A stretch of DNA of 64,000 nucleotides, from assembly GCA_030765065.1 (NCBI GenBank), contig CM060975.1:167930993-167994992 (forward strand), in the 5' to 3' direction. Each line of letters opens with the position of its first letter. Position 1 is the stretch's first letter. The position numbers and the translations under genes are program-made. Below, piece by piece: positions 8,296 through 62,076 of this stretch. Origin of the DNA: Deroplatys truncata (lineage: Eukaryota > Arthropoda > Insecta > Mantodea > Mantidae). The notes under the pieces were generated by a model. That model searched no databases, was not told where the DNA came from, and worked only from the letters and a program-made list of their open reading frames with translations.

Positions 8296-8374
8296 ATAAG
8301 AAATGGCGCTGCATTTGTATCTGATAAACGTGGTACTTACTGTAGTACTCCTGGTTTGCCTTCTACTTTTTGAG
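8296..8374 (+). CDS. Gene A, first coding exon: signal peptide of a small secreted protein
   Basis: The ATG at 8303 opens 24 codons ending at a donor (GAG|gtaatt) at 8375. The peptide starts M-A-L-H and is followed by an unbroken run of V, L, I and C residues, a typical secretory signal sequence. A pyrimidine-rich tract ending tgcag lies directly before position 8296, so this is probably the second exon, with a 5'UTR exon upstream that I could not place. The call rests on a second exon at 54294-54375 with the same layout: AG, then ATA-n-GA, then ATG, the same M-A-L-H start and exactly 24 codons. Downstream exons in compatible frame are at 22763, 30113, 30470 and 30774, giving about 129 residues in all. 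The exon begins only about 60 bp after the end of a family A repeat. The family is not one I recognise. No transcript evidence was available, so exon joining is inference. Confidence 0.62.
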
Positions 8375-8689
8375 GTAATTGGATCTACAAGCATTTCCGT
8401 TGCTCCTTAGTTTAAAAGTTATTTTCCTGATATTTGTTATACATAAACCTAAAAAATTGCAGTATTCTTTTAGCCTTATATTCTTGAGAAGGTTATTTAG
8501 ATATGGATTAATTATTATTTGTAATTTAAATACACTATTCTATAAAATTATGGCATACGATTCCTTAGATTCTAAGTCGATAGGTAGATAAGGTATCTTT
8601 ATTAGTTTTAAATTATTGAAGTTATTACACAATAATTTAGTGTGTGGGCCATTGACCGTACATGCATATTTAAGATACAATGTATGGTG

Positions 8690-9058
8690 ACAAAATAAAC
8701 AAAACAAAAAGGCAACAAATATGAAAATAGAGATAAATTACCTTTACTAACTGAACAAATCTGACCTAGCTTCACGCACTTTAGCCAAGAAATTGCCCAC
8801 GTTTTGCCAGTTCCTCTGGTCAGCCAGTAGATCCCAACATACCAATTTTCTTCTAGAAGGAGCTAAGAATTCCTCTTTGATTTTAATTGTTCGCTGGTTC
8901 TCCCACTGTGCACATTCCGCCAAAATATGTATCCAGGCACAGGCAGTCATCCAAATCACAGAATGGGCAGATTCTCCTGCCAGAATCATCAGTCATTTTC
9001 TGTGCCCTCCAGCCCCCATCTAAACTATGCCATTCCTGACCTTTCCTTTCTTCCTAAA

Positions 9059-9106
<48 letters not shown>

Positions 9107-9400
9107 TTACTCCAATTCCATTTTATTTCATTTGCTACACTAGGAGAAGTTTAGTTTTACAATCTGATTCTATTTCCTGTTGGTTAATGCTTTTAGTCTT
9201 CTTTTGACACCTTTCCATATGTTTTTGTCATTTGTTTCAGCTCTTGTCATACTTGCCACATTCCTATTCTCCTCAAACCCCTTTCTAAATCACCTGCCGA
9301 AAACTTAGGACACAGGTTTTCTCCTTGGTATTTATAATATTTGGACCGTAGGGTGGAATTATCTCCCTGCATCAGCATCAGCCAGTGCTTCACTGCTCTA
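8690..9400 (-). pseudogene. 3' fragment of a non-LTR retrotransposon
   Basis: On the minus strand one frame reads R-I-C-P-F-C-D and the adjacent frame W-I-H-I-L-A-E-C-A-Q-W-E. Together they have the C-x2-C...H-x4-C pattern that closes many I/R1-like reverse transcriptases, with one frameshift. Sequence upstream (9100-9400) also looks like broken coding sequence. A (TA)n at 9060-9105 interrupts it. Confidence 0.4.
9060..9105. repeat. (TA)n microsatellite
   Basis: Uninterrupted TA repeat of about 45 bp. Confidence 0.95.
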
Positions 9401-9614
9401 TTTTGCAATGTATTGTGTCTTCATAACATCCCACCTCCCTCAATACACCGAATTTGATGTGTCTTGAGAAACTCCAAGAACTCTTTTCCAAAATGTTATA
9501 AAAGACGACTTATACTGTTTAAATGCTTTGGAAAAAGCTGTAAACTCTGATCAGAGAGAAATGTAAAACAACGCATATTTTCATTACTAGTTATCAAAAA
9601 ATCTTTTCTTAGGA

Positions 9615-9621
<7 letters not shown>

Positions 9622-9668
<47 letters not shown>
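9622..9668. repeat. (CT)n microsatellite
   Basis: Uninterrupted CT repeat of about 47 bp. Confidence 0.95.
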
Positions 9669-9672
<4 letters not shown>

Positions 9673-9957
9673 GATTCTCCCTGTTTTCTTTCCATTTCTC
9701 TTGATCTCTTATACATTCAAATCAAGTTAAATGAACCCTGAACCAATGAAACTGTAAATTGCATTGTAGAAGTCAATATGTAGTGAATGTGTCAGTGATA
9801 AAATTATATCAATTATATACGTAATTCGAGTTAGTGCGATTTATAGAGGTCTTCGCGACTCCGCCCATGAACACTAAAACTCTAAGTGATGCAGGGAGAA
9901 TCATGTGTATTGTACACAGGGTTACAGGTCAAAAGTTGAAGAGAACGTTAAAATGCT

Positions 9958-10665
9958 GTATAGCTAAAAACTTTGATGCGTTATATTCACATGAATCCAC
10001 CACTTATTAGTGGGTATACAAATTATTCTTAAGAAAGTTTATTTTCCTATCTACTTAATTTTAATCCACGTAAAACTTTTCGGAAATAGCTTCATTACAC
10101 ATTTCATTATATAGGTGGATACAAACGGGACACTGACAGTCAAATGTTTAAGAACGCTATACTTTGACTTAAAATTATGCTCTTTCCATGACATCGCGAG
10201 AAACAGCTGAAAATCGACAGGAAAGAGTGACTATGTATTGAACAATTAGAACAATTAATAACTGGTACCTCCGAAGTGGTTGATGCTACAAAAAGCTATT
10301 TGAAATAAATTGTGTGTTTTAAGGAGATCCATATTGCTTTGTGAAGTACAGTTTCGTCCATTGCTTTGTTTACCGGGTATACAAGGTTATACAAAATTCC
10401 TTCCGAATAAAGAGGACTTCAAAGGCTATCCCCAGAAAATTTAACATATACACTTTATTTGTCATATAAATATCTTTAATACGTGGTATTTTAATCAAAA
10501 TCGCTAAAGCCATTTTTTAGAAAATCAAAGATTTTCAAAATCTTTTATTCAAAGGGTAGTTTGGGATGATGGGATTTTCTTGAAAATCGTTCATGTCGCA
10601 TCCTTGGAAGATACTGAACTTTTTGCTTTTGAGTTATGCTGTTCACAGACACAAACAGACCTTTC
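9958..10665 (+). repeat. Family A repeat, nearly full internal region
   Basis: It runs from the left-end motif (tgcgttatattcacatga) through ttcattttaatcca, aacagctgaaaatcgacag, aatctttaatacg and gggatttt to gagttatgctgttcacag, where the next copy begins. Confidence 0.75.
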
Positions 10666-10667
10666 CC

Positions 10668-10860
10668 TAAAACTCTGATGTGTTACGATCGCATGAATTT
10701 CTCTATCCTCTATAATTTATTAATGGGTATAAAACTATTCTTAGAAAGCTTATTTTTCTAACTACTTCATTTTAATAGTTGCAGAAGCTTTCCAGAAATA
10801 GCTACATTACTACTCCAAAGGGAATAGTGAAGTCAAATGTTTAAAGGCGGACGAAATACA
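10668..10860 (+). repeat. Family A repeat, left part, directly after another copy
   Basis: It starts again with gatgtgttacgatcgcatga and continues to gggaatagtgaagtcaaatgttt. Together with 9958-10665 it forms a head-to-tail pair joined inside the AC-rich segment. Confidence 0.65.
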
Positions 10861-10869
10861 TAAATAAAT

Positions 10870-12360
10870 ATTTCATGCACCATATTAGCTTATTTGTCGT
10901 CAGGAATAAATAACAACGCACGCAGTTTCACCAGCCCAAGGTAAATGGTTATCACGTTACAGCCTGTTGTTGGGTTGACGCATGACTTCATGAGAGCTAC
11001 ACTGCACCAAGACAAGTGTACCCACCATGGTTGTTTTAAATGACTAACAAATTTAAGTATTAATTTCACTAGAAGTTCATAACTTCTCTGAATAACAAAA
11101 CGTAGAGCTAAAGCTCAATTAGTTTTCATAATCCATTCAATACTATGTTCCTCTGACGAGAATATGGTTGTAAGCAATGTGTTGGCATCAACACATTGGA
11201 CACAGTTCTAGCGTTATCTGAGAAAGATAACGGCTCTACTTTCAACGTATCAACAAGGCTTAAGGCCTCTTAGTAAATATAGGCTCCTTGGCTAGGACGC
11301 TAAATGCAATTGAAGATTCATAAGGCGAATGAATGAACAGAGATTGCTTTGTATTACTTTGTACTTCCTTTCTTATTGAGCATTGTAAATAACATAAATA
11401 TCTCACTAGAAAACACCTACACGCTGCTCCAAGTGAGACACGCTGGAGCACTAACGTTGCCCGATGCTTTTAATGTATATAGTAAATCTATTTATGGCAT
11501 CATTGTGAGCTGTCATGTGGTACTATCCCCTCCTCCTTCACTCCTCCGGAGAACAGAATAACCCGCAAACTTTTTCTCGTCAGAAGCCTACAGTACCTAC
11601 TAGATGATGAACAGTAGTCCAACATCTGCTTTGAAAATGAGAGAACGTTTTATCTGACCCTTTCAGTTGAACCAAAAAGGAGCAATTTTTAAGATTTACT
11701 TGATTCCCACAACTGTTCTGAGACAGTTAATGTGACCACCGAAAACCGTGCTCGTTCCATCCAATGGTGTAAGCGTAAGGAATGTATACCTATGAATAAT
11801 GATGAGGAAAGTTTGTGTTCCTTGGGCTATGAAAATACAAAATTAGTGAAGGGTGATTTTGTCGTATCGCAAAGCATCTTAATTTTCACAAATTATTTAT
11901 AGATCATGTTTGAATATTGTGAGTCATAACTTAGCGTTAAAAACAAAATGCTCAGCTAAACAGAAATTACTCACCACCTCCTAATAAGACTTGGCAATAT
12001 CCCTGCTACAAACAGTTTACAGCATGGATTTACTCCTAAGCTGCTATTGGGCACAAGAAGAGTTGCCATAGCGCCATGTATAGTTTTTACTGTTAGAAAT
12101 GCTTTTCAAGAACCCAGCGAGGTGTATGTAGGCTTCAAACTTCACCAATAAACACATAAATTAAAAATAATAAGTTTTAACTTCAGCAATTGTTATTATC
12201 ATTATTATTATTTAAAACTGTATAACGTGTCTGTGACCAACCTTCTTATGTTTGACTGAAAACGCGAGCGATGTTCCAATCGTAGTAACTCTAATGGAGT
12301 TCGAAGAGATTTTTTATTTCACGCATTATCAGCAGTTTAAATTCTTCGTTAGATTTCTCA
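10870..12360. other. No gene recognised
   Basis: Intronic, AT-rich sequence. Short open frames (11260-11561) have no features I can interpret. Confidence 0.35.
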
Positions 12361-12369
12361 TATTTATTT

Positions 12370-14200
12370 TTCATGATCAAGACCCAGATGCTTTGGAGTA
12401 CTGAATTTTGACTTTTTTTTTATTTAGCTTGAAATTGAGATCCAGTGCTACTATTATGGATCTAAGTTGAAGGTCATTATATGAAAAATGTATTCTTTTC
12501 GGAACATAATGAGACGAAGACTGCGATAACTTCCTAAACTGCCATTATGTATGCAGTGTCGAAACGAGTCAAATCTTTTAAGAAGGTGCTATCCAAAATT
12601 ATCTTCTTCAGAGCATGAAAGGCATTTGAATGTCCTTTAATCCATGATTTACTTCTTTGGTCTTCTTTCAACAATCTATCATGTTCACAAGATTTTTATT
12701 CATCGTTTTCTAGCCATTTATGTTAAATTTTATGTGATGAAGAGTTGATGTGAATTTTTCAGTTAGTAATGTACCGTTCCCATTACAGTTTTGCGCAGCC
12801 AACCTAAATTGGTAAATATGGCTTTCCATGCCATTGACACTGGATATTTTGTCCTACCATTTTAATTTTTTTTTATGAATTTTAGACAAATGCCATACCT
12901 CAAATTCATGTTCAACTTTCGATTATTGAGATTTTAGCAGCATCTTTATGTCTGTCTGAGAGAAAAACGTAAATTCTACACATGTCCTGTTTTGCAAGCC
13001 TTGTCATCATGTTATAACAAGCAGTCCTTTCCAAATCGTCTTTCACCATATTTCTTTGAACAAGTTCAAAATCAATTATTTTTCGGGAATTTAAATCCAT
13101 AACAGAATAGATTAAATATCTCGCTGAAAATCCTGCGGAGTCATACTGCCCATCCCTTGCCAACTATATAGGGAAATTCTAATTTTAATAAAGTTATTTT
13201 TTCTTTCCTGAAAATGCTCCAACAACTGATGGTACCATGTTTTGAACGGTTTTATCGATTGTGCGCCTTGAAAATATTGCTAAACCAGTAAATTGCTGAA
13301 AGAATATACCAGAAATAATAAATAACCTGATACTAAAGCATTTTCTTCCGACTTCTTTCCTGATAAACTTTGTGAGATCCAAGTGAATGTATACTACAGC
13401 AATAACACATTGTTTTAACATATAGCATTGTCCCTTTAATGTAATGAGAAATTGTTTTGAGTTCATTTCGACTTAAAACATATACCTTGAAAAATAAAGG
13501 TAGAAATGTCAAAGCTACAATGAAATACGCCGCTGTAGCTTAATTTCCACGTATGGTGAAAGTCTCCTCTTCTTCCACTTCCTCGTTCTCATTTGTATCA
13601 GAATCTGAAGCATCAGGTTATAGCAACTTTCATTCAGCTTATTCTGATCATCTTTATCATTGCTTCTTTCGTACACATTTTCAGGTTCTAACAATACATA
13701 TTTCCTTATGATTACAGTACCTAGTTCACATAGTACTTCTCAATTCTTATTTTTTTCATCACCTTCTATTTTGAATTCTCCTTCACTGCCTTTATCACAT
13801 CGCCTTTGTTGTCAGTCTTATTACAAGCAACACTATTGCATAGCTCAGAATCTATGCTTTTACGATTTCTAGCCTCATATCGTTCTGTTCTGTCGTTTTC
13901 TCTTGGATGAAGATGGTGAAGGATCAATTGTCTTAGTAGAGCATGATATATGGAAATTGTCCTCATTTTTCCTTATAGTAGGAATAGTTCCAGTTTTTAA
14001 TAAAAGCCGTCTGAAATTTTCATCCGGCAGAAAATGAAGGAACATAAGCACACCGAAACCAGGGAAAAATATTTTCTATCCATATCGCATATCTTTTGCG
14101 AGATTTGTCTGTTTGGAAACGTGTAAAATTGAGTTCCCTTGTGCGTTTCCCTTCTCACATTATAGCCATATGTACAACATGGAGGCATTTCATTTTCCAC
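12370..14200 (-). pseudogene. THAP-domain DDE transposase relic (Kolobok-like, inferred)
   Basis: The minus strand from 14200 begins M-P-P-C-C-T-Y-G and Q-F-Y-T-F-P, the start of a THAP zinc finger. After a frameshift, L-H-F-L-P-D-E and T-G-T-I-P-T complete its C-terminal part. Next come F-F-Q-Q-F-T-G (about 13300), then D-G-Q-Y-D-S-A-G-F-S-A-R-Y and L-S-D-R-H-K-D (12912-13163), which match the conserved acidic blocks of this transposase group. Next is an H-x-F-x-V-W-H-L block near 12890. A tail with L-K-D-L and H-F-S-Y-like motifs runs to about 12370. Domain order is complete, but at least five frame breaks make it dead. Assignment to Kolobok-type is inference; inverted ends were not located. 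Confidence 0.6.
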
Positions 14201-17655: not shown

Positions 17656-17742
17656 TGTCGCGGTCACTTCGTGTTATCTTTTGCTGGGCGCCTGTTATTG
17701 TATTACTACTTTGAATGTTGGGTTCATTGTCCTCCGGCTAGC

Positions 17743-17787
<45 letters not shown>

Positions 17788-18555
17788 GTCGTGCATATCT
17801 CTTGATCAAGGTGTGTAAACGGAAAGGATTTGTTACTCAAAGATAACACTGATAAAAGAATTTGTTTCTTACACTTATTACCGTCACAATTAATTAAGTT
17901 CACATATTGACTCGTGATATACGCCAAACTGAAACTGTTATATTTTCTAATATCACTATAATCACTTATTTACTGCACATTATTAATTCGCGTGTTTCAC
18001 ATTTATAACAAACTTTAAGACGCGAGGGATTCTGTAGAATTGCGTAACGTGTACTTTATGTATGCTTCCGTTGAACTACGCGACGTATAACTCACGAATA
18101 CTTATGTTGAACTGATCGACGTATTACACGCGAATGCTTCTGTTGGACTGACGAAATCTGTCTCTGACTTTAGCTTTTTATACTCCCACACCCCGATATG
18201 CCTAAAGATTATAACCGAGCTGCTATTGGTTAATAAAACGCGCCAACATTAGCGTCTATTTTTATATCCAATCAAAAATTACGAAAACATATGCTCTAGC
18301 GAAAATATTCCCGCTATTTCTAAGAAAAGCACGCCAATCTGACGTCATTTGTTTGTCTCTTCTAATCGATAAACAACTCACCCCCTCACTACATTGTTGC
18401 CCGCTCTTATTGTCAGTTTCAGTGAGGCCGTGTAAACTTATTTCCTAACAATGCTTATAATTAACAAACATCTCAAATCAATGTCATACAATAATGCTTA
18501 TTTACACTACAATCTCTCTGGCATTTACATTGATGTGATTCAAATTACTGCCACA
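17656..18555 (-). mobile_element. 5' LTR of a truncated LTR retrotransposon
   Basis: The minus strand begins TGTGGCAG and ends GCGACA, the TG...CA form, and is about 900 bp long. It is related over its full length to the solo LTR at 50968-51847 in the opposite window orientation. A TATA box (gtataaaaag) lies mid-LTR at about 18176-18185, and the primer site follows the 3' end. It contains an (ATT)n at 17743-17786 and degenerate 35-bp repeats (about 18020-18160) that are regular in the other copy. Confidence 0.75.
17743..17786. repeat. (ATT)n microsatellite inside the LTR
   Basis: Uninterrupted att repeats. The other LTR copy lacks the expansion (it has only attattact here). Confidence 0.9.
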
Positions 18556-22762: not shown

Positions 22763-22803
22763 AATGCTGCGTTTGTCGCTGCTATGCCAAAACCGGTGGC
22801 AGG
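22763..22803 (+). CDS. Gene A, second coding exon (41 nt)
   Basis: The sequence tttatttttgcag precedes position 22763 and a good donor (gg|gtaaga) follows 22803. Read from codon phase 0 after the signal-peptide exon it gives 13 codons (N-A-A-F-V-A-A-M-P-K-P-V-A) plus two bases of the next. It resembles the 39-nt exon of gene D at 62038 (both begin AATG, share CGTTT and GCCAAA-CC, and have similar acceptor flanks). This should be the start of the mature protein after signal cleavage. Intron 1 is about 14.4 kb and full of transposons. Caution: this exon leaves phase 2, while the gene D exon leaves phase 0. Confidence 0.55.
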
Positions 22804-27954: not shown

Positions 27955-29825
27955 AAAGTTGCACCACTTGAGACATTTGCTGAGTTTGGTTAACGATAGA
28001 AGTGAAATAACGATTTTTGTCTTACAATATAGGAAGATAACCATGAATCTATGTGGGGAGACGCTGGATGTGTCCACGGAGAGGGGCTGCCCGCAGGGGG
28101 GTGTTTTATCACCCCTGCTATGGAACCTTGTAGTGGACACACTTCTTTGCGCACTCAATAGTGATGGTTACTTCACAGTTGGTTTTGCAGATGATATTGC
28201 AATAATCATAAGAGGGAAAATTCCTCACACAGTTTCTCAAGTGCTACAAATGGCGCTTAAGAAAGTGGAAGCTTGGTGCAAGATGAATAATCTAACTGTT
28301 AATCCAAGCAAAACATTAGTGGTACCCTTCACCAGGAGAAGGGGGCCTGATTTAACCAGACTCTCTCTCTCTCTTTGGTGAAGCAGTGTCCTATTCAACA
28401 CAAATTAAATATCTTGGGCTTGTTTTAGACAAGAAATTAACTTGGAAACATCACATGGAATTATGTATTACCAAAGCCTACAGAGTCTTTTGGACATGTA
28501 GAGGTATGCTTGGTAAGACATGGGGTCTGAAACCTAGCATAGTGTATTGGATATACACTGCCATGGTGAGACCTATATTCTGTTATGCCGCACTGATGTG
28601 GTGGCCTAGAGTTAATTTAAAGGTGTGCAGAAAGGAACTCTGTAAATTACAGAGGACCTTCTGCATTTCAATTATGGGAGCCTTCAAAACTACTCCAACT
28701 GCAGCCATGATCGCGTATCACCGTATTTGTCGCCAAACCAGTGTCTAATACTGGACATATTAATCATCTCAAGCTTCCTTGGGATAAGAATGTACAACAG
28801 TTACTCAACATGGGGACTGACATTCTTGAAACAAGATTCAAGTTTGATTTGAAATTTACGGTATCCTATCCACAGCGGAGTGAATGGGAAAGACTAGTAA
28901 AACCTCATAATAACAAAGGCCCAATCTGGTATACTGATGGTTCTAGAACCAAATCGGGAACGGGGGCTGGGCTTTACGGTAATGGTACCAAGATTTCTTA
29001 TAGTCTTGGTACCTTAGCTACAGCTTTCTAGGCTGAGGTTTATGCAATCCTAGCCAGTGTCATGGAAAGAATTAAAAGGATATATAAGAATAGAAGTGTT
29101 CTTATCCTCTCAGACAGTCAAGCTGCTCTTAAAGCACTTGAATCCCCATTTATAAAATCAAAGCTCGTCTCAGAATGCCGGGAATCCTTAATGACACTGG
29201 CTGAACACAATAAGGTTCAACTTATGTGGGTGCCAGGACACATAAGTATACCAGGCAATGAGAAAGCAGATGAAGCAGCCAAGATTGGCAGTGAAATCCC
29301 ATTTTTTGGTCCGGAGCCTGTACTGGGAGTGTCCTACAGACCAGTGAAATAGGCTATTAAGTGCTGGGCTCAAGCAGAACACAAGAACTACTGGAACTCC
29401 ATTGAGGGTTGCAGACATTCCAAGTTGTTCATTACAGACCTGGATAACAGCCGGGCAAAATACTTGCGCGGTCTTAGTAGAAGAAGACTTGCATGGGCAA
29501 CAGGATTCATTACAGGACCTGTGCCATAAAGTTTAATCTATACAGAATGGGATTGTTTAACAACCCTATCTGTAGTAGATGTCTAGAAGGAGATGAGATG
29601 TTACTCATCTACTATGTGATTGCCCTGCTCTTGCGAATCAAAGAGCAAGTACTTTTGGCAGTCACTTTTCAAAGATAGATGAACTATAGAAACCTCAGTT
29701 AGCAGTCTGTTTAAGTTCATATCGAGCAACAGACTACTTAACTGATGAAAGGGGGGATGCGCAATAGATCTTAAGGTCGCAGTGCTTGGGCATAAAACCC
29801 ACCCCTTCTCAAACTAGAACTAGAT
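27955..29825 (+). pseudogene. 5'-truncated RNase H-bearing LINE (I-clade-like)
   Basis: The reading starts inside the reverse transcriptase: G-C-P-Q-G-G-V-L-S-P-L-L-W, then F-A-D-D (catalytic YxDD-type box, about 28185), then N-P-S-K-T. After a TGA at about 28380 it continues I-K-Y-L-G-L-V-L-D and M-V-R-P-I. An RNase H domain follows: Y-T-D-G-S-R, A-E-V-Y-A-I (preceded by a TAG at 29029-29031), S-D-S-Q-A-A-L, and G-N-E-K-A-D-E-A. Then comes N-P-I-C-S-R-C, the zinc knuckle start. Four or more stops or frame changes inactivate it. It lies just upstream of gene A exon 3. Confidence 0.85.
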
Positions 29826-30112
29826 ATAACGATGAAAGAAAAGAAACGTGAGTGTCAAAGCGACGAATGTAAAAAATTGTCTTATTTATGTTATTGTAAA
29901 GTCAACATTTGAATTGATTTTATTCATTTGGCATAATACTGTACTGTACAGTAACAGATCACATTAGCTTATTCAAATGAAATGTTTTCGTGCATTTGAT
30001 AAGGTATTAAAACTCTATGCTTGGCACTGAAGGTGAATTTACATAAATTAATAGGCTTAATCAAATCAATATAATATAGATATTTTTCTATTTTCATTAT
30101 CATTTCAGTTAG

Positions 30113-30290
30113 TTCCTTCCTCCGTTACTCACCCATTGGTAGTGATGGCAGAGAATTTTGCAATTTTCTCGACCGAACAAGGCTGCATATAATTGATATA
30201 GAGTCGTATGAGAAACTATATTTAAATTTGACAAAAATAAAGCATATTCCATATCTCATTAGCTCTTGTGGGAGAAGTATGCAACCAGAA
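30113..30290 (+). CDS. Gene A, third coding exon (largest)
   Basis: A pyrimidine-rich tract (ttttcattatcatttcag, then ttag) precedes it. Using the second AG, the first base completes the glycine codon left by exon 2, and 59 further codons are open. It contains two cysteines (about residues 54 and 90 of the full protein), one N-glycosylation sequon (N-L-T at about residue 76), and a D-R-T-R-L stretch. A paralogous exon at 41408 reads D-R-A-K-L at the matching position after 24 residues. The proposed donor is gaa|gtgatg at 30291, which is weak. If it is not used, translation stops four codons later at TGA 30300-30302. Choosing the first AG (exon from 30109) would give an immediate stop in the frame inherited from exon 2. 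Function unknown. Confidence 0.55.
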
Positions 30291-30469
30291 GTGATGCCCT
30301 GATCAACGACCGAAGAATCAGTTTTTCTACGCCATAATGGAGATGCAGACTTTCAGAATGGCGTAGCAGAAAATATTGGTGTTCATTGACTATCATAACC
30401 AGGAGTGTGTGAAATTTCTTTATAACTGCTATAAATTACAATTTTTAATCGCATATGTTTTAACTACAG

Positions 30470-30553
30470 AATGACATAAGTAGGTTACGTAAACACGTCG
30501 AAAAGTACATTCCAGTTGACAGCTTCAATAACAAAATAACAGAGGAAGAACTG
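30470..30553 (+). CDS. Gene A, fourth coding exon (28 codons)
   Basis: The acceptor ttaactacag ends at 30469 and the donor ctg|gtaata begins at 30554. Only phase 0 is open. It is a charged segment starting N-D-I-S-R-L and ending T-E-E-E-L. Related sequence occurs at 36760 and 41625, where the AG at the start is kept and a GT lies at the matching end (gtacga, gtacgt), but both copies carry frame damage. Conservation of the splice positions across three copies supports the exon ends. The open frame also continues another 29 codons to TAA if the donor is ignored, so an alternative longer terminal exon is possible. Confidence 0.5.
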
Positions 30554-30773
30554 GTAATACGTCGAACAGATAGTGAAAATGATCGTTATTATCAGGATTT
30601 CAGTCTGCATTACCAGATAAAGACAATAACTCTAGGCTAAAAATTCAAACACATTAGAGCATTAGTATGAAGCCCCTATATCGACAATCTGTTAAGTTGA
30701 AACTTTTAAGTTAGTTATATTAGCTTTATACTGGGATTATTTGCTTAACGTAATCATAAAGTCTTGTCCATAG

Positions 30774-30788
30774 AGCATGCTTTCCTGA
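30774..30788 (+). CDS. Gene A, terminal exon: last four codons and stop
   Basis: After the acceptor gtccatag, phase 0 reads S-M-L-S-stop. The matching site in copy B (acceptor ccacag, exon from 37053) reads N-L-L-S-stop. Copy C (from 42720) has the same start with small insertions. Agreement of the short reading and stop between A and B is the main reason for placing the C-terminus here. The 3'UTR continues to about 30905. Confidence 0.45.
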   Translation, partial: SMLS

Positions 30789-30884
30789 GACGAGTTTGAT
30801 TTTCTGTCGGCATTGGATGAGAGTATGAAGATAACTTTTGTAACACTTCGGCAATTAACTGATAAGATGTACTGAGTTCAAATG

Positions 30885-30890
30885 AATAAA
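30885..30890 (+). terminator. Polyadenylation signal of gene A
   Basis: AATAAA lies about 100 bases after the proposed stop codon and is followed by a T-rich stretch. The paralogous block has AATAAA at the matching position (37173-37178). Confidence 0.45.
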
Positions 30891-31264
30891 CGATTTTTTA
30901 AAAGTAATTTATATTAAATATACTGAAAAATTTTAAACCGGAAGCCCCAGTTTTATATGTCATAATTTTCCTAAAAACATCCATACCATGTATTTACAAA
31001 TGACCACAATTACTAGCATGCAGCTCTCATGCTGCGAATGATTTCAGTGATTTATATTGTACACGATATTTGTTATTTGCTAAACTTTAAAAGAATACGT
31101 AGAAACGTTAGCGTAGAAGCAGAAGCACAGATGAAAACGAGGAAGAAAGCATTTGGAAGTAGTCTTTATGACCAACCACATTGTTTGTGCAGATTTTATG
31201 CAGGTTCATTTTTAGTATTTTAGCAATCACCATCATTTGCCTAATTCTGCTAATTCTATGACTT

Positions 31265-31690
31265 ACTTATTATAGTTATACGAAGTATTGTTTTTCATTT
31301 AAACTTATAGTACCCCTATTTCACTGAAAATGTACGTTATAGTAGTTATGGAAAGTATATTTTTTTCCTTCAAACCTTCAGTAGCCCTATTTCACCAGAA
31401 ATACACATTATCATAGTACAGAAGGTATATTTTTTCCTTCAAACTTTCAGTAGTCCTATTTCATCAGAAATGCACGTTATCATAGTTCAGGACGTATTGC
31501 TTTACTCTCAAACTTTCGGTACGCATATTTCACCGGAAATACACGTTTAGTACCTACAGGAAGTATTGTATTTCTCTCAAACTTACGGTACTCATATTTC
31601 ACCAGAACTACGCATTATAATAGCTATAGGAATTATTGTTTTTCTCTCAAGTTTTCGGTACCCATATATCACCAGAAACACACGTTTTGA
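31265..31690. repeat. Tandem array of the family A terminal unit, about 80-85-bp period
   Basis: Five to six copies of a unit containing tcaaactttc-gta, c-atttcacc-gaaat-cac and a gaagtatt motif. Each unit is the reverse complement of the last 80 bp or so of family A. The paralogous segment at 37740-37800 has one unit. Confidence 0.7.
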
Positions 31691-32210
31691 GGTACATTAA
31701 ACGGCAGTAGGCATTTTTCAAACAGTTCCGTGTATGTGTGTATGATTTACTATGTACTCCTGTCAGTCTGTCTCTGTTTCTCTATGTGCAAATATTAAAT
31801 TTCATATTTTTTTAAACAACCTAGTTTAAGGTTTTCAGCAACATTCCTGTAAATCGAACTACCCTTAGCAATAAAACATTGTCGTTATTTTAAATTATCT
31901 AAAAGAAATACTGTATCGACTCCGTCAAAGTATAATATATTTGAAATATTCATGTGATAATTGAATGTATTTTTTTTTAATTTTTCCGTGAATTTCTTGT
32001 GAAGAACTCATCATACTGTTTTAATTACCGATCTCTATAACTGTAAAATAACAATAGAAAGAAAAAAAACGTTTGAGTAGGAAAAATAAGTAGTTCATTA
32101 AAACGTACAAATTATTTGAAATAAATTGTTTGGTAGTTAAGGCCGTTTTTCAAACATTCATTTTTGCATCCTTACGCTTTCGCATACGTATGTCGTATGA
32201 CAAATATGCT
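31265..32210 (-). repeat. Family A repeat, reverse orientation, with amplified end
   Basis: On the minus strand the internal part (to about 32210) matches the family: aaacaatttatttcaaataa, caaatatattatactttg, gggtagttcg and cttgaaaa-like blocks. Its right-terminal unit has been multiplied into an array at 31265-31690. Confidence 0.6.
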
Positions 32211-36546: not shown

Positions 36547-37178
36547 GAAATAATTAACAAAAGCAATTCTCATTATTTGACCGACCTTGGCCTAACCGAG
36601 CAGGACAGTAGCTAAGTTATACAAATTAAAATACTTGGTTAACAGTTTAGCATAGTTTATGAAGAGATCAATTGCAGGTGTTATGTAAGTTGAACAGACT
36701 ACAAGTTACTTCATAACTGCTATAAATTACAATTTTTAATCGCAAATACGTAAGTACAGATGACAAAAGCAGGTTATTAAGCACGTGGAAGAGCACTGTG
36801 AGCTGACAGCTTCAATTGTAAGGTAACAGGAAAGCCTGAAAAAGAAATAAATGCTAGGTACGAGATAGATAAAGTAAAAGTATTCGTTACTATCCGGACT
36901 TCATGGTTTACAATTATCATATAAAGCTAAAAATATATAGCATATAGACTGACTAGACTAAAATTTATAGAAACAATAGTGTATCAGTATTTTGTATGTT
37001 GTCTTTACCTAACATAATTGTAAAATAATTTGTTGTATTTTTATTTCCACAGAATTTGCTATCGTGAGAATAAATTTTGTATTATGTGTCAGCATAAGAA
37101 TGGATGAGAGCATGGATGTAACAGTTTTGTGTAAGGCGTAACCAATTTGATAAGATGTACTGAATTAAGCTGAATAAA
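36547..37178 (+). pseudogene. Copy B: decayed exons 3-5 of the secreted-protein gene family
   Basis: The block aligns by eye with gene A and copy C. Exon 3-like sequence spans about 36547-36677 (S-H-Y-L-T-D then E-Q-D), exon 4-like about 36760-36857, and exon 5-like starts at 37053 after a clear ccacag acceptor, with AATAAA at 37173. Exon 3 has an early TAA. Exon 4 has lost single bases relative to gene A, so the frame breaks. The exon 5 reading (N-L-L-S-stop) is intact. No first or second exon for this copy was found nearby. It could also be a broken alternative 3' block of gene A. Confidence 0.5.
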
Positions 37179-42643: not shown

Positions 42644-42744
42644 ATTTGCTTTATATTGGGATTATTTGCTAATATAATCATAAAACAATTTTTGGTTTTA
42701 TTGCCACAGAATGTGTTTTTCCTGTTGAGGGTCGGTCTGCACGG

Positions 42745-50967: not shown

Positions 50968-51847
50968 TGTGGCAGTATATCACAACACTGTGAATGCCAG
51001 AGTGATTTTAGTGTAAATTAACATTATTGTATGACAATGATTTTAGATGTTTGTTAGCTATAAACATTGTTAGGAAATAAGTTTACACGGTCTCACTGAA
51101 ACTGACAATAGGAGTGGGTATCTATGAAGCGATGGGGTGAGTTGTTTATCACTTAGAAGAGACAAACAAATGACGTCAGGGTAGCGTGCCTTTCTTTAGA
51201 AATGGAGGGAATATTTTCCCTAGAGCATATGTGTTTGTAATTAAGATTGGCTAACAAAATAGCCGCTAATGTTGGCGCGATTTAGTAACCAATAGCAGCT
51301 TTATTATAATGTTTAGGCATATCGGGGTGAAGGAGTATAAATTCTTGAGCCTAAAGCAAGTATCGCGCAGTTCTGTAGAATCATTCACGAGGTAAACGTC
51401 GCGCGGTTCTACAGAATCTCTCGCGAGATACACAATATGCAGTTCTACAGAATCATTCACGAGGTACACATCACGCAGTTCTACAGAATCTCTCGCGAGG
51501 TACACATTACGCAATTCTACAGAAACTCTCGCGTCATAAAGTTAGTTACAAAATGTGAAGTACGCGTACGACAATAATTACATTCGGATTAACAGTTTCA
51601 GTCAGGCGTGTATCAAGATTAAATATGTGAAATTAATTAAGTGTGACGGCAATAAAAGTGTGAAAATAAATTCTATTATCAGTGTTACCTTTTAGTAACA
51701 ACTCCTTTCCGTTTACACGCCCTGCTTAGAGATATTTGCTCGACTGAGTAATAATAGCTAGCCGGAGGACAAATAACCCAAAATTCAAAACAGTAAACAA
51801 TAACAAGCGCCAAGTAAAAAAGATAACACGAACAGATTACTGTGACA
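50968..51847 (+). mobile_element. Solo LTR with 4-bp target duplication
   Basis: It begins TGTGGCAG and ends GTGACA. ATGG lies directly outside both ends (50964-50967 and 51848-51851). It has a TATA box at 51336-51341, five roughly 36-bp tandem units (about 51364-51535) and AATAAA at 51651-51656. No internal region follows. It is related to the LTR at 17656-18555. Confidence 0.9.
51364..51535. repeat. 36-bp minisatellite within the solo LTR
   Basis: Five units of the form cagttctacagaatc-(t/a)-ctcgcgaggtacac. Confidence 0.85.
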
Positions 51848-52884: not shown

Positions 52885-53735
52885 TACAATAGAAAAAAAT
52901 CTTGTGATACACTCACATGACCTCCTCTACCTCTATCGTCTATTAGTGGGTACTCTTACTAAAGCTTATTCTTCTATCTAATTCATTTTAATCCAAATAA
53001 ACCTTTGCAGAAATACCTGCATTACAAATTTCATTATAGATACAAATGGAATAGTGAGAGCCAAAGGTTTAAAAACTGGACACTATATGCTAGGCTTAAA
53101 ATTCTATACTGTTTCCATGCAATCGCGAGAAACCACTGAATGTTGACAGCACTTTTAAAGGATGATCAAGTAATGAACAAATCGAATCATTACTAACAGA
53201 TATCTCATAAGTGGCTTATGCTATAGAAAAGGTTGTTATAAATAAATTCTGTGTTCTAAAGAGATTTACATTTCTTGTGCAGTATTTTCATTCATCGCTT
53301 AACATTTACTGGTTATACAAGATTACACAAAATTCCGAATGAAGAGGACTTCATAGGCTATTCGCAAACAATTCAAGATATACATTTTACATGTGATATA
53401 AATATCTTTAATATATAGCATTTTAATCAAAATCGTTAGTCATTTTTTAGAAAATCAAGATTTCCAAAAATGTTCCATGTAATAGGAGTTTAAGTTGGGA
53501 GGATATTCTTGTACATATTTGGAAGGTACTGAACTTAAATACCAAGTTAAGTGTTCATCCGCATTTCATTTTTGCTTTATGCTGCTCACAGACATACATA
53601 GACACTCACACACGAACCTATTACTAAAAACTCATTTCTTTTATTCAGGGAACTCAAACCATGTATATCCGGCGAAATCTCGATATCAGATTTTTAGTGA
53701 AATGTAATGTGGTAGAGAATGCAAAAATTATACTT
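52885..53735 (+). repeat. Family A repeat, nearly full internal length
   Basis: It runs from ttgtgatacactcacatgac to gtggtagagaatgcaaaa with the standard block order. It is the last copy before gene D. Confidence 0.8.
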
Positions 53736-54293: not shown

Positions 54294-54375
54294 ATACGAG
54301 AAAATGGCACTTCATGACCTTCTCATAAAAGCTGTGATAGCTGTGGTGTTCCTGTGTGGCAATATCCTTAATCAG
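54294..54375 (+). CDS. Gene D, first coding exon: signal peptide, paralogue of gene A
   Basis: The acceptor attcgttttag precedes ATACGAGAAA and the ATG at 54304. It encodes 24 codons starting M-A-L-H, followed by a hydrophobic core (A-V-I-A-V-V-F-L-C), the same length and layout as 8296-8374. The base after the exon begins gcatgt, so the donor would be of the rarer GC type; a GT lies four bases further on but would break the frame match with gene A. The second exon is proposed at 62038. The rest of the gene should lie beyond the window. Confidence 0.58.
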
Positions 54376-54379
54376 GCAT

Positions 54380-57110
54380 GTCTTATTAACCCTCCAATTA
54401 ATACTCTTAGTTTAGTATCATTAGATCTCGTTTCCTTCTTAACTTCAGCGCAGTGGAATTAAGCAATCACTTGCTAAGACAGTGGTGGGGGTAGGAATGA
54501 TAGAGTCCAAGCGATCTAGAATTAGGAGCACTCACGTACTTGGGTAGGTAGAGCCTCTACGCAGAGCGAGAAAGAGAAGAGATAGTACATTGTCTCTTTC
54601 TTTCATTCTTACTCGCTATGCGCTGACAGTTGACGTGACTCTTTGAAGTAATACTGCACAACCTACTTTCACCCGGCATCCTGTGTGCTGCCGACTATAA
54701 TGCCGAACAAATGCTTCAGTTTTTCGGACTGGCATAAAATGCTAGTGGCCGTCCACTTTCTTTGCCGTGTCGCAAGAATACATATAGGGGTCATAGGAAA
54801 CCTGAGTCAAATAGATACTGAAGAAGTAGAAGGAGATGAAAGCGTAGCCATAATAAAATAAACTATCTCTGTAGCTATTTATCGATTCGAACCAAATTCA
54901 ACTAAGAAAATCTTTCCTTGTGGAGTTTCTAGCTTTAGAACACCATTTTTGTCTCAGTCAGGTTAGGTCTAAACAGACTAAAACCTGGGAAAGCTTCTAG
55001 AAGAAAATGTATTGGTGCAGTTAGTGCTTTAATTGTGAATTCAACATAAAACATTAATAATAATAAAATTGAACCAACTATATCACACAGGTACAAACAA
55101 TAACGAACAACACTGAAGTGTGGAAAGAGTAGACACTAACATCACTTCGATTACCGAGGAACATTCAAGATTTGGAACAAGCACATTTATTTGTAATACA
55201 TTTATTACGAATACATGTTTAATGTGGAAATATTCATTTACAATATACTGTATTGTTATAGTAATTGAAATCCACATACACTTACAAAAGTAACAAATAG
55301 AACACGTGGGCACGCACAAAAACATGATTTAATAATTTAATGATTTTCTAGTGAAGCACGGTGACAGGACCAGAAACGGGCTTGTTTATCACACCTTCAC
55401 TTACTATGTTTACGGTATTCTGCTAACTGCTTATCCCCCACCAGTCTCGTTACATTAGTGTAGTTACTGCAGATGGAAATTCCGGTTAAGTTATGTTCTT
55501 ATTCCAACGCGTAGTAGATAATATCACTTATTCTTGGGGTTTCGGAAGTTACAAGGCATGTATTAGTATATTCTTCTTTTGCTAATTTTATCCGAGGTTT
55601 TGCAAAATACTACAAACAATTAACATTAATCATGAATTTAAAAAGTGGATTTAATATTTAAATAAGTTAGTTTAAAATGTCCGTTAACTCCAATTATAAT
55701 AGTGTAGTGATTAATTGATATAACAATTTCGTTACCCTTTTGCTTTTTGTGCTGCCTTCAGTGTGTTCTAGTAAAACACTTCGGTGTATGGGGCATAGAT
55801 TCAGCTGTTAAGAATTATAGATGTAGTAAACAATATCCTTTCCTGTAAATAATCTACTAGCTAATACCGGTATCATTACAAGGCAAATTATACGAAGGAA
55901 GTGAATTTTGAAGCACGTAGATGTTACTGCAATGGTGCGAGAATTTGGTACCGGAATGTAGATGCCACCTTTTCCCGTTGTCTCAGATATACTGCTGACT
56001 CTTCTGCCGGCTGCTCTAGTGGTAATGCTACGAGTATTTTCCCACAGAGTATGTTTGGATATATTGTGAAGGCCAACACCAGCTTATCTTGACTGAGAAA
56101 TTTATTATAAACTATACTGGAGTTCTTGTAGTGGGTTGTGGACGTTTGTAATATAGTAATGGGCTGATTCTGAATTGTAAACTCGAAACTATAACACTTG
56201 AATTACTATACCTGCTAACTTCTGCGGGATCTATTTTACGGTTTGAAATAACTGTTTCCACAATAAAAGAAACCAGTCGTCTAAGTCATCGTGAGTCGCA
56301 AAAAGTTGACTGGCCAGATTCCTCGCGGCAGACGGAAATCTCAATCACACAAGCAAGTCTTTAAACGCTTAACATCACACTCGTTAGTACCGCTGCCGGT
56401 AACAGTGAGCAAATAATTAATGTTTGCACAACTGTGTGCACTAAGGTCGCTGCGTATCAATTACGGTACCAGAGAATATTTGTTACCTTTAGCTCCACCT
56501 ACATTCTACCTTATACGTTTCCAAATCTCAAAACTGTTAGTATACGAATGTTACACTGTTGGTTAGGCGATGCGTCGCTTTTCTTATAATTTCCGTTGCC
56601 TCTCTAATTTCCAGAATTGGCCTGTATATCGTATTGCACTTAACTCTAAACTGCGTTCGCAGAAATCCTTAATCTAACGTTTTCGCTCCTTCTCGACTCA
56701 CCAATGACTCAGGCTAATCTAACTGCCTAATTATCTCCATCTTTCCGGACAAACATTTCAACTCAAACTTGTTATATTATACATTGATTTAATATACGAA
56801 AATTATTTATTGCAATTATTTCTCTATCTTACTGTTATTTATTTGATTATTTATATCTGCCGTCAATAATTACAGTATAAATTTTCAAACTTCTTAACCC
56901 TCAATAGGAAGAATGATTTTTATTACTTAACTGGAAATACGGGGTGTATCACTGTGTTTGCTCAGTTGTGTGCTATTATTCTTTCTGCGTGAAATAGCGT
57001 CAAAATCAAACCATTCTGATATGGGTACGTTATTGCTCTTTCCGATGTAAAATACTTGTATTCTAAGATTATTAAGCAGTGAAAGAGGCGTGATTTTATC
57101 ATATCCAAGA
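54380..57110. other. Intron of gene D, no further gene recognised
   Basis: I see no repeat relationship to the rest of the window and no convincing open frame. Confidence 0.35.
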
Positions 57111-57114
57111 AGGT

Positions 57115-58045
57115 GATCTCATGTGCACTCAACAAAAAGGTAAGTCCACATCAAGACTTATTCCAAAAGGCAAGAAACAGAGAAATCCACGACCGGCCAC
57201 CAGTCGCACCCCGGAGATAATTTGGAAGGTGAAGGCCCATGCCTCTGGACAAATCCTGCAAATTAGAGAGTCATTGCTCTGTAATTAGGTATCTCTGTTA
57301 CTATTGTGAACGCCATAATCAACCAGGATTTGAAGTAGAAAAGTGTCATAAAAGCCGGGGATATAAGCTGTTGCCCCACACATTGCAGAACATGCCACTA
57401 ACAGCATAAAGCTGTATGGACGAAACCTATCTTGTGAAAAGTGGATATTTGTTATGTTTTTAGATGAGGCATATGTTTATCGAAGTGACTGCAACAAATC
57501 CTGGCTTATGTATTACCGAACAAGGGAAGAAAAACTGAAAGTTGGTATAAAGAAATTATCGAAACTTTCCCCGATGGTTTCATGGTAATAACAAGGTACA
57601 GTTAGAATGGCAAATTAACTATTCGTCGTGTACAAAAAAGAATGTGAAACGTCAAATGGAATATTATCAGACTAACGTTCTGATACCAATTTTTCAAACA
57701 GAAATCTCTGCTTTCTATGGCGCACATGTAAACAAAGTCTGGTAGCATCAGGATAAGGCATCAAGCCATACGTCTGCTTCAACCTACAAATTTTTGATAA
57801 CATAGAACTAGAAATGGGAATACATTCCATACCTTACATCGACACCCGTGTTAAGTCATTGATGCACCATTTATAGAATTTTGTGCATTTCAGCTACTGA
57901 AAAGAGCTCTTGGAAGCAGACGTTGCGAACTTTGAATGATTTCTGGAAAACTGCCAGGAAGAATGCAATAAACTGGACATCCCTATATTTCGTAGATGTT
58001 TGCTCCAATGGAAGCTGTGCTGCAGATTAATTGCTCAAGCTAAAG
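57115..58045 (+). pseudogene. Tc1/mariner-superfamily transposase relic
   Basis: Across shifting frames: an N-terminal H-Q-D-L-F-like region, then F-L-D-E-A-Y-V-Y-R-S-D (first catalytic D, about 57461) and M-Y-Y-R-T-R-E-E-K. Next, in another frame, come F-M-V-I-T, L-T-I-R-R-V and H-Q-D-K-A-S-S-H-T-S (second catalytic D, about 57745). The usual S-P-D is unrecognisable. Multiple stops and shifts mean it is inactive. Confidence 0.7.
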
Positions 58046-58049
58046 GCTG

Positions 58050-61000
58050 CCAGAGAGAACATCACTGCTGGTGGAGGCGTGATTTTTATAAGCTAAGGGA
58101 GTCTTAGGTTTGTTACCGTAGATTGCAAACAACCCTCTGTATATGTCTGATAAACACGGTAACATATAAACTATGCTTTTTGGAAAAGCGGTGCATGTAT
58201 ATATTACTACAATGAAGAAACTGAATAGTATTTCACTAAACATCCCCATTAAGCAAAGATTCCAACACTTAGGCATATTACTTTCATCAATATTTATATT
58301 AATTTTACCTTCACAAAAACTATCAAAATTGTTTAAAAAATGTCAGATATAAGCTTTAAATTCACATATTTTAGTTAATTAATCCATTCAACACCTAACA
58401 TACATTTTTCTGAAGCATTCCAGACAAACAAGCCTATCAAAACTCGTGCATTTAAATCAGTTATTCTACTAAAGACAAAAACTGCACTTCCTTTTTATTT
58501 CTATTTTGTAACTCTTCACCAGTCCTTGTTCATCTGTCTTCTTCTGTGAGTCTTTTCAAAGGACATTTTGAATTATAATCTTCAAATTTCCTCTCAAATT
58601 GGAGATAAGTAGCCTGTTTTTGAGATGAAGTCTCATTAGATTTAGAGACAGTTATTTGAACAATTTGTACCTGGAGAAACTTTTTGTGTTTCCAAAGAAG
58701 AACTATAGAATGCAGCTGTTCACTGTAATTATGTTTATTAAAGAAAAACCAGCGTCTGCATTTTCTATTAAATGAGAAGTTGCCACATTTTTTATCCAAT
58801 GTGTCTACTGCTGAGAGGGCTGAGAATAGAAAGAGAGAGAAATAGTAGTCCAATTCCTGGAACTCGAGGGAGTTGGTAAAATACAAGGAGAAACATGTGC
58901 TTTAAAGTAAGATGAAGTTAGTGGGTTTTCCAAACAAGACACCAGGACTTGTGTCAAAACTTGTGTCAAAACTTGACACATTTTATTCTCATGGCACGCT
59001 ATGTAAAAGTACTAATAGAAATAATTGTAACAAATAAGGGCACGAATTCCGTCGTCGTTGATGAACAAATAAAAGAGGAGGGAGACTCAGAGTTTGGTCA
59101 TTCTCTAAATTTCTCTTATACTCTTATATTTGCTATCAACGTAGCAGTCGTCGTACTCACCAGTGATGTGATTAAGTTGTGCAGTCCGGCGGAAGATTCT
59201 TCGTATATGTGGGTAGGAATATCATGTAAAGTATTAGATAAGTCCACAGAATAACTTCGGTATTAGCGGTAAGATGTAATATATAAAGATTTATAGCATC
59301 ATAGGGAAAGTTGCTAGCCGCCTGAATAGACATCACTCTTTTAATAAATCAAGGTTTAAGGGAAATCAGTTTATCATTTGCCTTCACCTACAAAATCCTT
59401 GAGGTCACATTATGAAACTGTGAAACTGTTATGCTACGATAGGATTTTTTTTTTGAGCTCTCCGACTAGCAGCCGACACAGAACATCTATAACCAGGGAG
59501 ATCCAGACTGTATACGAGGACACGTGTACACCCGCTACATGCTCCACGTGTAACTGCCACCATCAACAATGGCTTACAACACTAGACTGACAAAGAAATT
59601 GTATGAAGCTACAGAGGCATTTCCGCAAAGCAAAAACGCATGCGTGCCTCTCAGGCACATACTTCCTTTTAGGAGTTAAAGCTTAGAAAGTGCAAAATTT
59701 TCGAGAAATTGCTGAAAATTGGCGTTAATACCGATTCGGATTTCCACTCTTTTTAACATTAACATATTAATAGAAATAATTTGTTTGTGTTTACATGTAA
59801 GTTAGATAAAATACCCAAACGATTGATAGTTTTTACAAGCTTGTCCTTTTCCCGAGCACAAGGTATAAGACAGCTACTGGTTTCAACATTTAGTTGTTGT
59901 TGTTACTTCATAAACAATGCTTCTAAAACTAAAAGCCAATTGTGTTCTATTCCAAGCAATATACATGAAGAGCATAATGTAACAACTAAGCCTTGGAGTA
60001 ATATTAAGCAAATGAAACAGAGCGAAACAAAAGCAATCGATCCTGCTTTATAACTATGTGTATGTTATATTTATCTCTTTGTTGTTGGAATTTTTTAAAT
60101 TGTTGTATATTTTCAGAGAAGATAGTAAACTTTTATACCAATGCTACAAATGTATGTACCGGAGTTTTCTTATAAAAGCAATGATTTTAATTGCTCTCAC
60201 ATAAGTAAGTTTTGTGTTATTTCCTTTGTACATATGTAGTAATCAGCTTTCTTGTCTTTATTTGTTTGTTTGTATACAAATTTACTTTTTTAATCCCAGC
60301 TGTTGTATTCAGCTGAATTATAAAGGGAAAACATTTTCCTCCGTAATATCCGAAATTAATCAAGAGATACATTCCATAATTAACAATTGAAAATATTATT
60401 TTCTTAAGGATTATCCGTGATTTACCAAACTCAAAATGTTGTAAATGCTGGAGAAGGAGGGGTATGAAATGTTAAAATCCGGCAGATTGACTCCTATTTC
60501 TTTGAGTATTAATGTGAGGGGATTATATACTTCCTAATGTGAAAATGTAAGAGCATTTACATCATTAAATAGCACAGGATCAAAGAGAGGGTACAAAACC
60601 TTTAAAATTCCTCTGCTGTTATTAGCTGAAAATTATTTGACCAAGCAAGGTGATAGCTGTTCCTTGTTGGTGTCGTCAAATAAGCTAAACATGTTTTTGG
60701 GCTAGCATATCGTGATGGAGCACATATTTTACTTCATAATGGGGTAATTCTCCAAAAATACATTTTCGGGTTATTGAACATTTCCAGAATTTTGAACATT
60801 ATCTGCCTAGGAAAGGTAGAATCAGGCGACTGAAAAATTCAATCAGTCCTCTGACTCCACCTTTCCAACCTTGTCCTACATACGGCTTGTAAAGAAAGAT
60901 TAATTCCATTATTCTCCTATGTTTGACTATCATTTCCGTGAATATTATACGGTTTGATTTATTACCTAGTATATAATAGGATAGTACCTACATAGAGTTA

Positions 61001-62030
61001 AAAACACAAAAATATGAAAATGTCTTGTATATTCTTGTATAATAATTTATAAAGTATACGAGGGGCATTGAATTAAATTAATATAATTGTTATTCAAGGC
61101 TTCCATGAAGCGTAGGGAAGCCAGCTATTAAATATAAATATATAAAATGCAACTTTTATCTAAACATTTCAAATTATGGAATTATATCTAAACAATATTA
61201 GGCAGAAAAAGTAGGTGTACTAATGTTGCAATAAACTCCTTAAGTTCACCCGATTTCTAAATGTTCTATATAAAACAAATATAGTTCAACAACTAATTTC
61301 AATTTTTATTTTGGATAACGTTATCTTATGCCGCCAAGAAGCTTTTATATGAAGTAATGTAAAATAGTGTATATACTCATAATGTATTTTTAATGAAAAG
61401 GACTTTTTATAACCTTATTTAATTAGTTGGTGCAGAAATAACAAAATACATTATAGCAAATAGTTTCATTTCCATATAAGAACATTTGTAATTGGGTTAC
61501 AAATATTTAAGGACAGCACCCCATGAAGAGTATCAGTGATAATTAACTTAAGGATCAATGAAAATGTTACGTAACCATATCTATAAACATCTAATACTTC
61601 CGTTACTCAAATTAACATTTAATATCATATTTATAACGAAATTATAATTAAAATATTATAATTATTAATTTAACAAAACACAATACAATTTTATGTTGCC
61701 CTTAAATATATTATAAATGAAATGCATTCAACTCTGTCTAAAATAGCAACCTGTTTCTACAAGAGGTTGATTTTATAGTATATATCATACTGTGGTAGTC
61801 CATGTAATTTTATTTTACGTCAACTACATTAATTTGTATAAACAATTCGTACACATATTTGAACATTATTATACCTCTACTCTTATTTCAAATACTTGAT
61901 TAGACTATCGCATAGTTTTGGAAAGAGTCAGCCTAAAGATTTACATTAGTAATTTGCCAGGGACCTTTTAATGTCACCATGTCAGTATCGCAACAATATA
62001 ATTATTTAATGTAATATATTATATGCATTG
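58050..62030. other. Intron of gene D, no further gene recognised
   Basis: Several short open frames (58530-58886, 58949-59254, 59781-60053) show no motif I can name, no paralogue and no splice pattern that ties them to gene D. Confidence 0.35.
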
Positions 62031-62037
62031 TTTACAG

Positions 62038-62076
62038 AATGTCGTTTTAGCGAAAGCCAAACCTGACAAAATCACG
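62038..62076 (+). CDS. Gene D, second coding exon (39 nt)
   Basis: The acceptor tgtttacag and a consensus donor (acg|gtaagt) bound exactly 13 codons, N-V-V-L-A-K-A-K-P-D-K-I-T. It is similar in size, start and flanks to gene A exon 22763-22803. The intron before it is about 7.7 kb and holds a Tc1/mariner relic. No exon 3 candidate is visible in the remaining 1.9 kb. Confidence 0.55.

Follow-up and report, generated by a model that had tools for sequence, protein, structure and literature searches.

A probable cluster of small secreted-peptide genes with short coding exons in the mantis Deroplatys truncata

We analysed a 64,000-nucleotide stretch of DNA from the mantis Deroplatys truncata (GenBank assembly GCA_030765065.1, contig CM060975.1, forward-strand positions 167,930,993 to 167,994,992), referred to here as the window. 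Sequence comparison suggests, with a probability that we put at roughly 0.8, that the window forms part of a gene cluster in which six or more paralogues encode small secreted peptides, each with three coding exons where complete. The six genes, designated A to F, span ~200 kb, with E, A and B on the plus strand and D, C and F on the minus strand. The genome searched comprised 4.29 Gb in 818 contigs, and by these searches the cluster has so far been seen only at this one locus. The flanks examined covered 100 kb on either side of the window and later 50 kb more, giving 314 kb in total; coordinates outside 1-64000 are window-relative, the genome position being 167930992 plus the coordinate on the same contig. 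A first-pass annotation of the window had proposed that it hides a family of genes for small secreted proteins, whose tiny exons are separated by large, repeat-filled introns; this proposal was borne out, and the family extends beyond the window.

Start exons and second exons of the six genes

Exon 1 of gene A (8296..8374, plus strand) carries an ATA leader, an ATG at 8303 and 24 signal-peptide codons, and exon 1 of gene B (54294..54375, plus strand) likewise has 24 codons. The AG border, ATA leader, M-A-L-H start and count of exactly 24 codons that had been claimed for the two start exons were all found in both. The short second exons also agreed with their earlier description: both start with AATG and are followed by GTAAG donors, with lengths of 41 nt in gene A (22763..22803, plus strand) and 39 nt in gene B (62038..62076, plus strand). 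Exon 2 of gene A leaves phase 2 and encodes the end of the signal peptide with a V-A-A cleavage site, then MPKPVAG; that of gene B breaks the phase kept by the other five. The donor of gene B exon 1 at 54376, overlooked in the first-pass annotation, is GC instead of GT.

Start exons were scanned as an AG followed by 4-14 nt, an ATG, 18-32 open codons and a GT or GC. The A/B pair was the top hydrophobic pair of the window on both strands, with a BLOSUM62 score of 40 compared with a maximum of 22 in 60 Markov-3 simulations. When the hydrophobicity filter was removed, the pair ranked second to one repeat pair (56/49834; 91 and 65 at two lengths), and the simulated maximum was 38. In alignments that included the flanks, nucleotide similarity between A and B ended at the exon borders, which fits exons under selection, unlike a recent repeat. 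By this loss of similarity and by the third-position excess described below, the start exons of A and B are genuine paralogues, as are the short exons at 22763 and 62038.

A protein search combined with the start-exon scan of the flanks yielded three new start exons, each with the AG border and ATA leader: those of gene C (156044, minus strand, 24 codons), gene D (119844, minus strand, 24 codons) and gene E (-25768, plus strand, 26 codons). The corresponding second exons are all 41 nt long. That of gene C (153262, minus strand) was picked up by scanning for short exons that carry a signal-cut pattern, that of gene D (minus strand) by a profile of second exons, and that of gene E (plus strand) by a later scan in which it was one of four candidates. 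An earlier candidate for gene C exon 2 at 125990 was accepted at first and discarded once the better one at 153262 emerged; a tblastx lead at 142039, which had no acceptor, and exon candidates for gene C at 151311 and 149790, which had no convincing relatives, were also discarded.

Gene F was discovered in the later-fetched 50 kb with two profiles, one of exon 1 built from A-E and one of exon 2 built from A-D, neither of which contained F. Its two exons were found in the correct order and on the correct strand, ~2.5 kb apart: exon 1 (170318, minus strand; 24 codons, MALYALLIKSLFFALLLCCIVLYQ) scored 44.6 bits (E = 2.9e-12) and exon 2 (167759-167713, minus strand; 47 nt) scored 32.0 bits (E = 2.2e-8), compared with at most 10.0 and 9.1 bits for reversed and simulated controls over 3.14 Mb. 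Exon 1 of gene E, excluded from the exon 1 model, still scored 21.1 bits. For gene A, which was in both training sets, exon 1 matched its profile with E = 5.8e-20.

Exon 2 measures 41 nt in A, C, D and E and 47 nt in F, and leaves phase 2 in all five, gene B (39 nt) being the sole exception. The signal peptides end in V-A-A (A), V-L-A (C), V-A-A (D), V-T-A (F), A-K-A (B) and A-V-P (E). Over 37 codons of exons 1 and 2, ten pairwise comparisons among genes A, B, C, D and F (gene E was left out of this test) gave 157, 94 and 218 differences at codon positions 1, 2 and 3, respectively, an excess at the third position with a column-permutation p of 5e-5 (1/20000). The exon family, its coding-type divergence and the exon phase shared by five of the six genes are thus demonstrated at the level of sequence.

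In a DNA-level search, exon 1 of A and exon 1 of B each had one place in the genome, and the hundreds of copies at unrelated loci that the first-pass annotation had named as the sign of a repeat did not appear. A 35-letter pattern of exon 1, allowing at most 3 mismatches, had three matches in 4.29 Gb, namely C, D and F, its design set, and its reversed control had none; in such genome searches, missing matches do not establish rarity. These results bear on an extremely improbable alternative, in which the start exons are fragments of a mobile or repetitive element. A dispersed ~820 bp repeat (for example 52888-53715) does lie 0.1-2 kb upstream of five of the six start exons, all except that of C, in the same orientation. 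This repeat occurs on both strands of the 314 kb, with 127 matches when fragments are counted separately, and explains many of the self-repeats of the window; because it is so abundant, its closeness to start exons is expected. The confinement of the tested start exons to this locus (A and B directly, C, D and F by the pattern) and the loss of similarity at exon borders further argue against a mobile origin. The repeat was also considered as a shared promoter of the start exons and rejected, being dispersed.

Terminal exons and the ending of gene A

Downstream of exon 2, genes E, F and C, and probably D, have just one more short exon, the terminal one. Splice sites were scored with a matrix made for this analysis. 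The terminal exon of gene F (165370-165316, minus strand) encodes RWCPYKDRWGRTQKRPC and then a stop codon, with an acceptor score of 4.3 and an AATAAA 78 nt past the stop. That of gene C (148611, minus strand) encodes RLICIGKDKRGNTFVRP and a stop (acceptor 6.5, AATAAA at 71 nt), and that of gene E (-14111, plus strand) encodes NRCPQKDMFGKTALVSCEPPLNEDHNDITG and a stop (acceptor 7.5, AATAAA at 44 nt). The candidate for gene D (106522, minus strand) encodes LCPYKVPALLPCNG and a stop (acceptor 5.0, AATAAA at 48 nt). Gene C ends in TGA at the position of the final Cys codon (TGT) of F.

With the F and C peptides as queries, the E terminal peptide, out of 349 candidates in three frames, scored 41 against F, and this score was reached in none of 200 simulations in the predicted frame (maximum 35). 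The motif common to E and F is C-P-x-K-D-x-[WF]-G-[KR]-T-x4-C. A pattern derived from F and C, C..[KR][DEN][RK].G.[TS], had no other occurrence in six frames of the 314 kb. In a joint test (score of at least 27, acceptor of at least 4, AATAAA within 110 nt), 3 of 200 simulations equalled C and none of 200 equalled D. Over six frames of the 314 kb, the shorter motif C-[PIVL]-x-[KR] near a terminal-exon start with an acceptor of at least 1.5 was found 15 times in the predicted frame, compared with 10 and 9 times in the others. Under stricter cut-offs (acceptor of at least 4 and AATAAA within 110 nt), which were fixed once the four terminal exons were already known, there were four matches in the predicted frame compared with 1 and 0, and these four were exactly E, F, C and D, each downstream of its own exon 2. 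Exon-anchored comparisons at 14, 10 and 16 codons found no recurring exon, and at 10 and 16 codons the control frames did at least as well as the predicted one. The terminal exons probably escaped these comparisons because in F, C and D they are shifted by one codon, and because the comparisons covered genes other than E. The terminal exons of E and F are demonstrated by these data, gene C has a good one, and gene D has a fair candidate.

The first-pass annotation had instead given gene A five exons, placing exons 3, 4 and 5 at 30113, 30470 and 30774, and a secreted product of roughly 129 residues that carries two mature cysteines and one glycosylation sequon. The frame is open across all five exons and an AATAAA follows at 30885. 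We nevertheless consider this model very unlikely, and the 129-residue protein is unsupported. Since E, F and C pass from exon 2 straight to one terminal exon, the products that are supported have 52-70 residues. As drawn, the splice sites of the proposed exons are weak, with scores of -0.9 (acceptor) and -0.7 (donor) for exon 3, 2.7 and 1.8 for exon 4, and -0.6 for the exon 5 acceptor, compared with acceptors of 3.0 to 4.2 and donors of 5.6 to 8.1 for exons 2 of A-D. A genome search with the 129-residue composite at E ≤ 10, in which nine candidates were scored, returned only its own exons, and no counterpart of 30113-30290 or 30470-30553 was found downstream of B, C, D or F. The proposed exon 3 (30113..30290, plus strand) has an open frame and no relative found, and is unsupported as part of the gene. 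The proposed exon 4 (30470..30553, plus strand) lies within a triplicated block, is open in this copy only, and is unsupported as coding sequence.

The triplication itself held up in part. Three blocks of exons 3, 4 and 5 had been described, and a segment that begins at the end of the proposed intron 3 and covers exon 5 plus the 3' flank is indeed present in three collinear copies. In the two sister copies nothing clearly corresponds to 30113-30290, so exon 3 is unrecognisable there, and their exon 4 is broken. With the block 30400-31040 as query, a genome search recovered, besides the block itself, just the copy near 36.7-37.3 kb; it missed the third copy, which indicates that its sensitivity was limited.

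When the proposed exon 5 is shifted one base later, it becomes a terminal exon in the frame that exon 2 predicts. This copy, U1 (30774..30828, plus strand), comprises 1 nt, 17 codons encoding ACFPETSLIFCRHWMRV and a stop, with its AATAAA 59 nt past the stop, and is a probable copy of the gene A terminal exon on grounds of architecture only. The same holds for U2 (37053..37107, plus strand), with 17 codons encoding ICYRENKFCIMCQHKNG, an acceptor score of 5.1 and an AATAAA at 37173, 68 nt past the stop. The third copy, U3 (42710..42728, plus strand), meets a stop after 5 codons, its AATAAA is 256 nt away, and it is probably dead. The copies match the family in length, phase, position and AATAAA, and U2 does not match it in sequence, so the link to gene A is one of architecture. 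One of the terminal exons at 30774, 37053 or 42710 probably serves gene A, most likely U2.

It is also possible, though doubtful, that gene A uses U1, U2 and U3 as alternative last exons, one signal cassette thereby serving several mature peptides. Consistent with this, the three collinear copies lie downstream of the sole pair of exons 1 and 2 found between E and B, and U1 and U2 each have 17 codons in the frame predicted by exon 2, like C and F. The early stop of U3 and the weak acceptor of U1 speak against it, and suggest that the copies may be mere remains of tandem copying.

Gene B is probably broken, given its GC donor, its out-of-phase exon 2 and the failure of any terminal exon to pass the filter. 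These defects, together with the broken U3 and the TGA of C at the position of the TGT in F, could also be taken to mean that the entire cluster is dead, a set of decayed relics of an old gene family. We judge this unlikely: coding-type constraint is seen over five deeply diverged genes, and E, C, D and F keep open frames, splice sites and an AATAAA close to the stop.

Several points weigh against reading the locus as a cluster of three-exon peptide genes. The cluster is known from DNA alone. The terminal exons of F and C were chosen by eye from a list in the frame predicted by exon 2, and the C peptide scored 31 against F, a value matched by 15 of 200 simulations, so that its similarity alone is at chance level. 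Gene D also has a rival candidate terminal exon of about equal score. When the terminal-exon filters were applied without the motif, the predicted frame had no excess (9 compared with 9 and 10). No terminal exon of gene B passed the filter in any frame from 62.1 to 119 kb, and a search of the A and B intervals with the F and C peptides found nothing beyond controls. U2, the one copy whose peptide was scored, reached 16 and 17 against F and C, and less than 20 against F and E; U1 has a poor acceptor, at -0.6. Exon 2 of gene E has a poor cleavage site, A-V-P, and was chosen afterwards among its four listed candidates. The contrast in splice scores is weakened by the acceptor of B exon 1 (-0.4) and by the exon 1 donors of A, C and D (just 2.0-3.7). 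Finally, an alternative acceptor for the proposed exon 3, at 30109, scores 3.7 and favours the five-exon model, but its frame is mismatched to the 41-nt exon 2.

Repeats and other elements at the locus

Apart from the 820-bp repeat, the window contains an inverted repeat pair at 17668-18555 and 50968-51832 (74% identity over 913 aligned bases, ~32 kb apart) and tandem repeats at 31290-31706 (unit ~69 nt) and 51367-51546 (unit ~36 nt). Retrotransposon remains occupy 27956-29352 on the plus strand, with Pfam matches to reverse transcriptase (E = 4e-17) and RNase H (E = 1e-8). A minus-strand frame at 5445-6095 matches the Pfam GIY-YIG domain (E = 5e-5) and presumably resembles a Penelope-like element. 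Outside the window, between genes C and D, a frame at 123230-122412 on the minus strand bears what we take to be a resemblance to a Tc1/mariner transposase.

Predicted products and comparison with known families

The predicted precursors have 70 (E), 57 (F), 55 (C) and 52 (D) residues, and gene A would give 55 residues with either U1 or U2. In the proposed scheme, the start exon would supply a short leader and 24-26 signal-peptide codons. Exon 2, of 41 or 47 nt (39 in B), would complete the signal peptide, in most cases with A-x-A or V-x-A, and add a short pro-part; where a short terminal exon is found, it would encode the mature peptide and the stop, with a polyadenylation signal nearby. Signal peptidase would presumably cut within exon 2. 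Past the predicted cut, an X-P dipeptide run is clear in F (EPEPEPEP) and partial in C (DPDSDP) and A (MPKPVA), and R-R occurs at the exon 2-3 junction in F and C. A dipeptidyl aminopeptidase may trim the X-P pro-part, or the precursor may be cut at R-R in F and C, with release of a peptide of 14-30 residues that one disulfide would close in E and F. Counted by eye, the terminal peptides have net charges of about +4 (F), +3 (C), +1 (D) and -2 (E).

Dipeptidyl aminopeptidase trimming at E/D-A/P pairs is described for an ant antimicrobial peptide precursor (PMC3415428); gene F fits such a pro-part best, and D, B and E have no clear run. The genes probably encode a secreted peptide family of defence or signalling type. 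A defence role seems plausible at somewhat less than even odds, and a signalling or reproductive use slightly less probable. The more specific proposal, that this is an undescribed, locus-specific family of secreted single-disulfide peptides in which kilobases of repeats separate a conserved two-exon signal cassette from the fast-changing terminal exons joined to it, with several such exons to choose from in gene A, is put forward tentatively and seems rather improbable as a whole.

Among Pfam-A families, none scored above its curated cut-off for the 129-residue composite and its pieces, the products of exons 1 and 2 from five genes, or the five precursors, the best weak E-values being 0.02-0.06. 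No Protein Data Bank (PDB) entry matched at E ≤ 0.001 with the composite (best 1.5), the E precursor (none) or part of F (0.67).

The bicycle genes of aphids have many microexons and encode a paired-cysteine (CYC) motif. The present genes differ from them in having just three coding exons, and resemble them in being recognised by gene structure: bicycle genes encode fast-diverging proteins identified via gene structure rather than sequence (PMC9168663). The aphid KQY/KHI cassette effectors (PMC7495047) combine conserved signal-peptide coding with divergent mature coding; the proteins are small, and the genes that encode them are large, with small exons. There are 10 exons in KHI6 and 37 in KQY1a, of which 33 are of at most 15 bp, and the genes are mostly scattered. 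A similar division is seen here, where the signal part is conserved (exons 1 and 2 align in five genes) and the terminal exons share a short motif only. Unlike the KQY/KHI genes, with which the comparison is one of description and not of sequence, those reported here have three coding exons of 41-94 nt and lie in one cluster. The insect growth-blocking peptide or ENF cytokines (PMC6439351) are disulfide-containing peptides of 19-24 residues released from a precursor, which resembles the small disulfide peptides predicted here. The ENF active-peptide motif as given there, C-x(2)-G-x(4,6)-G-x(1,2)-C-[KR], was absent, as read by eye, from E, F, C, D and A (with U1 or U2), in which the third residue past the first Cys is never Gly. 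Among the papers listed by literature searches, we recognised none as describing the family, which is weak evidence of novelty.

The genes and the mature part of their products appear to change fast. Each gene scatters its three coding exons, of 41-94 nt, across 5-29 kb and is therefore easily overlooked by gene finders, and the revised gene model points tests at the correct peptide. If the genes are transcribed, the cluster would represent a new peptide family, and would show that a profile of the signal exons followed by a search for the terminal-exon motif can recover such genes from multi-gigabase genome sequence alone.

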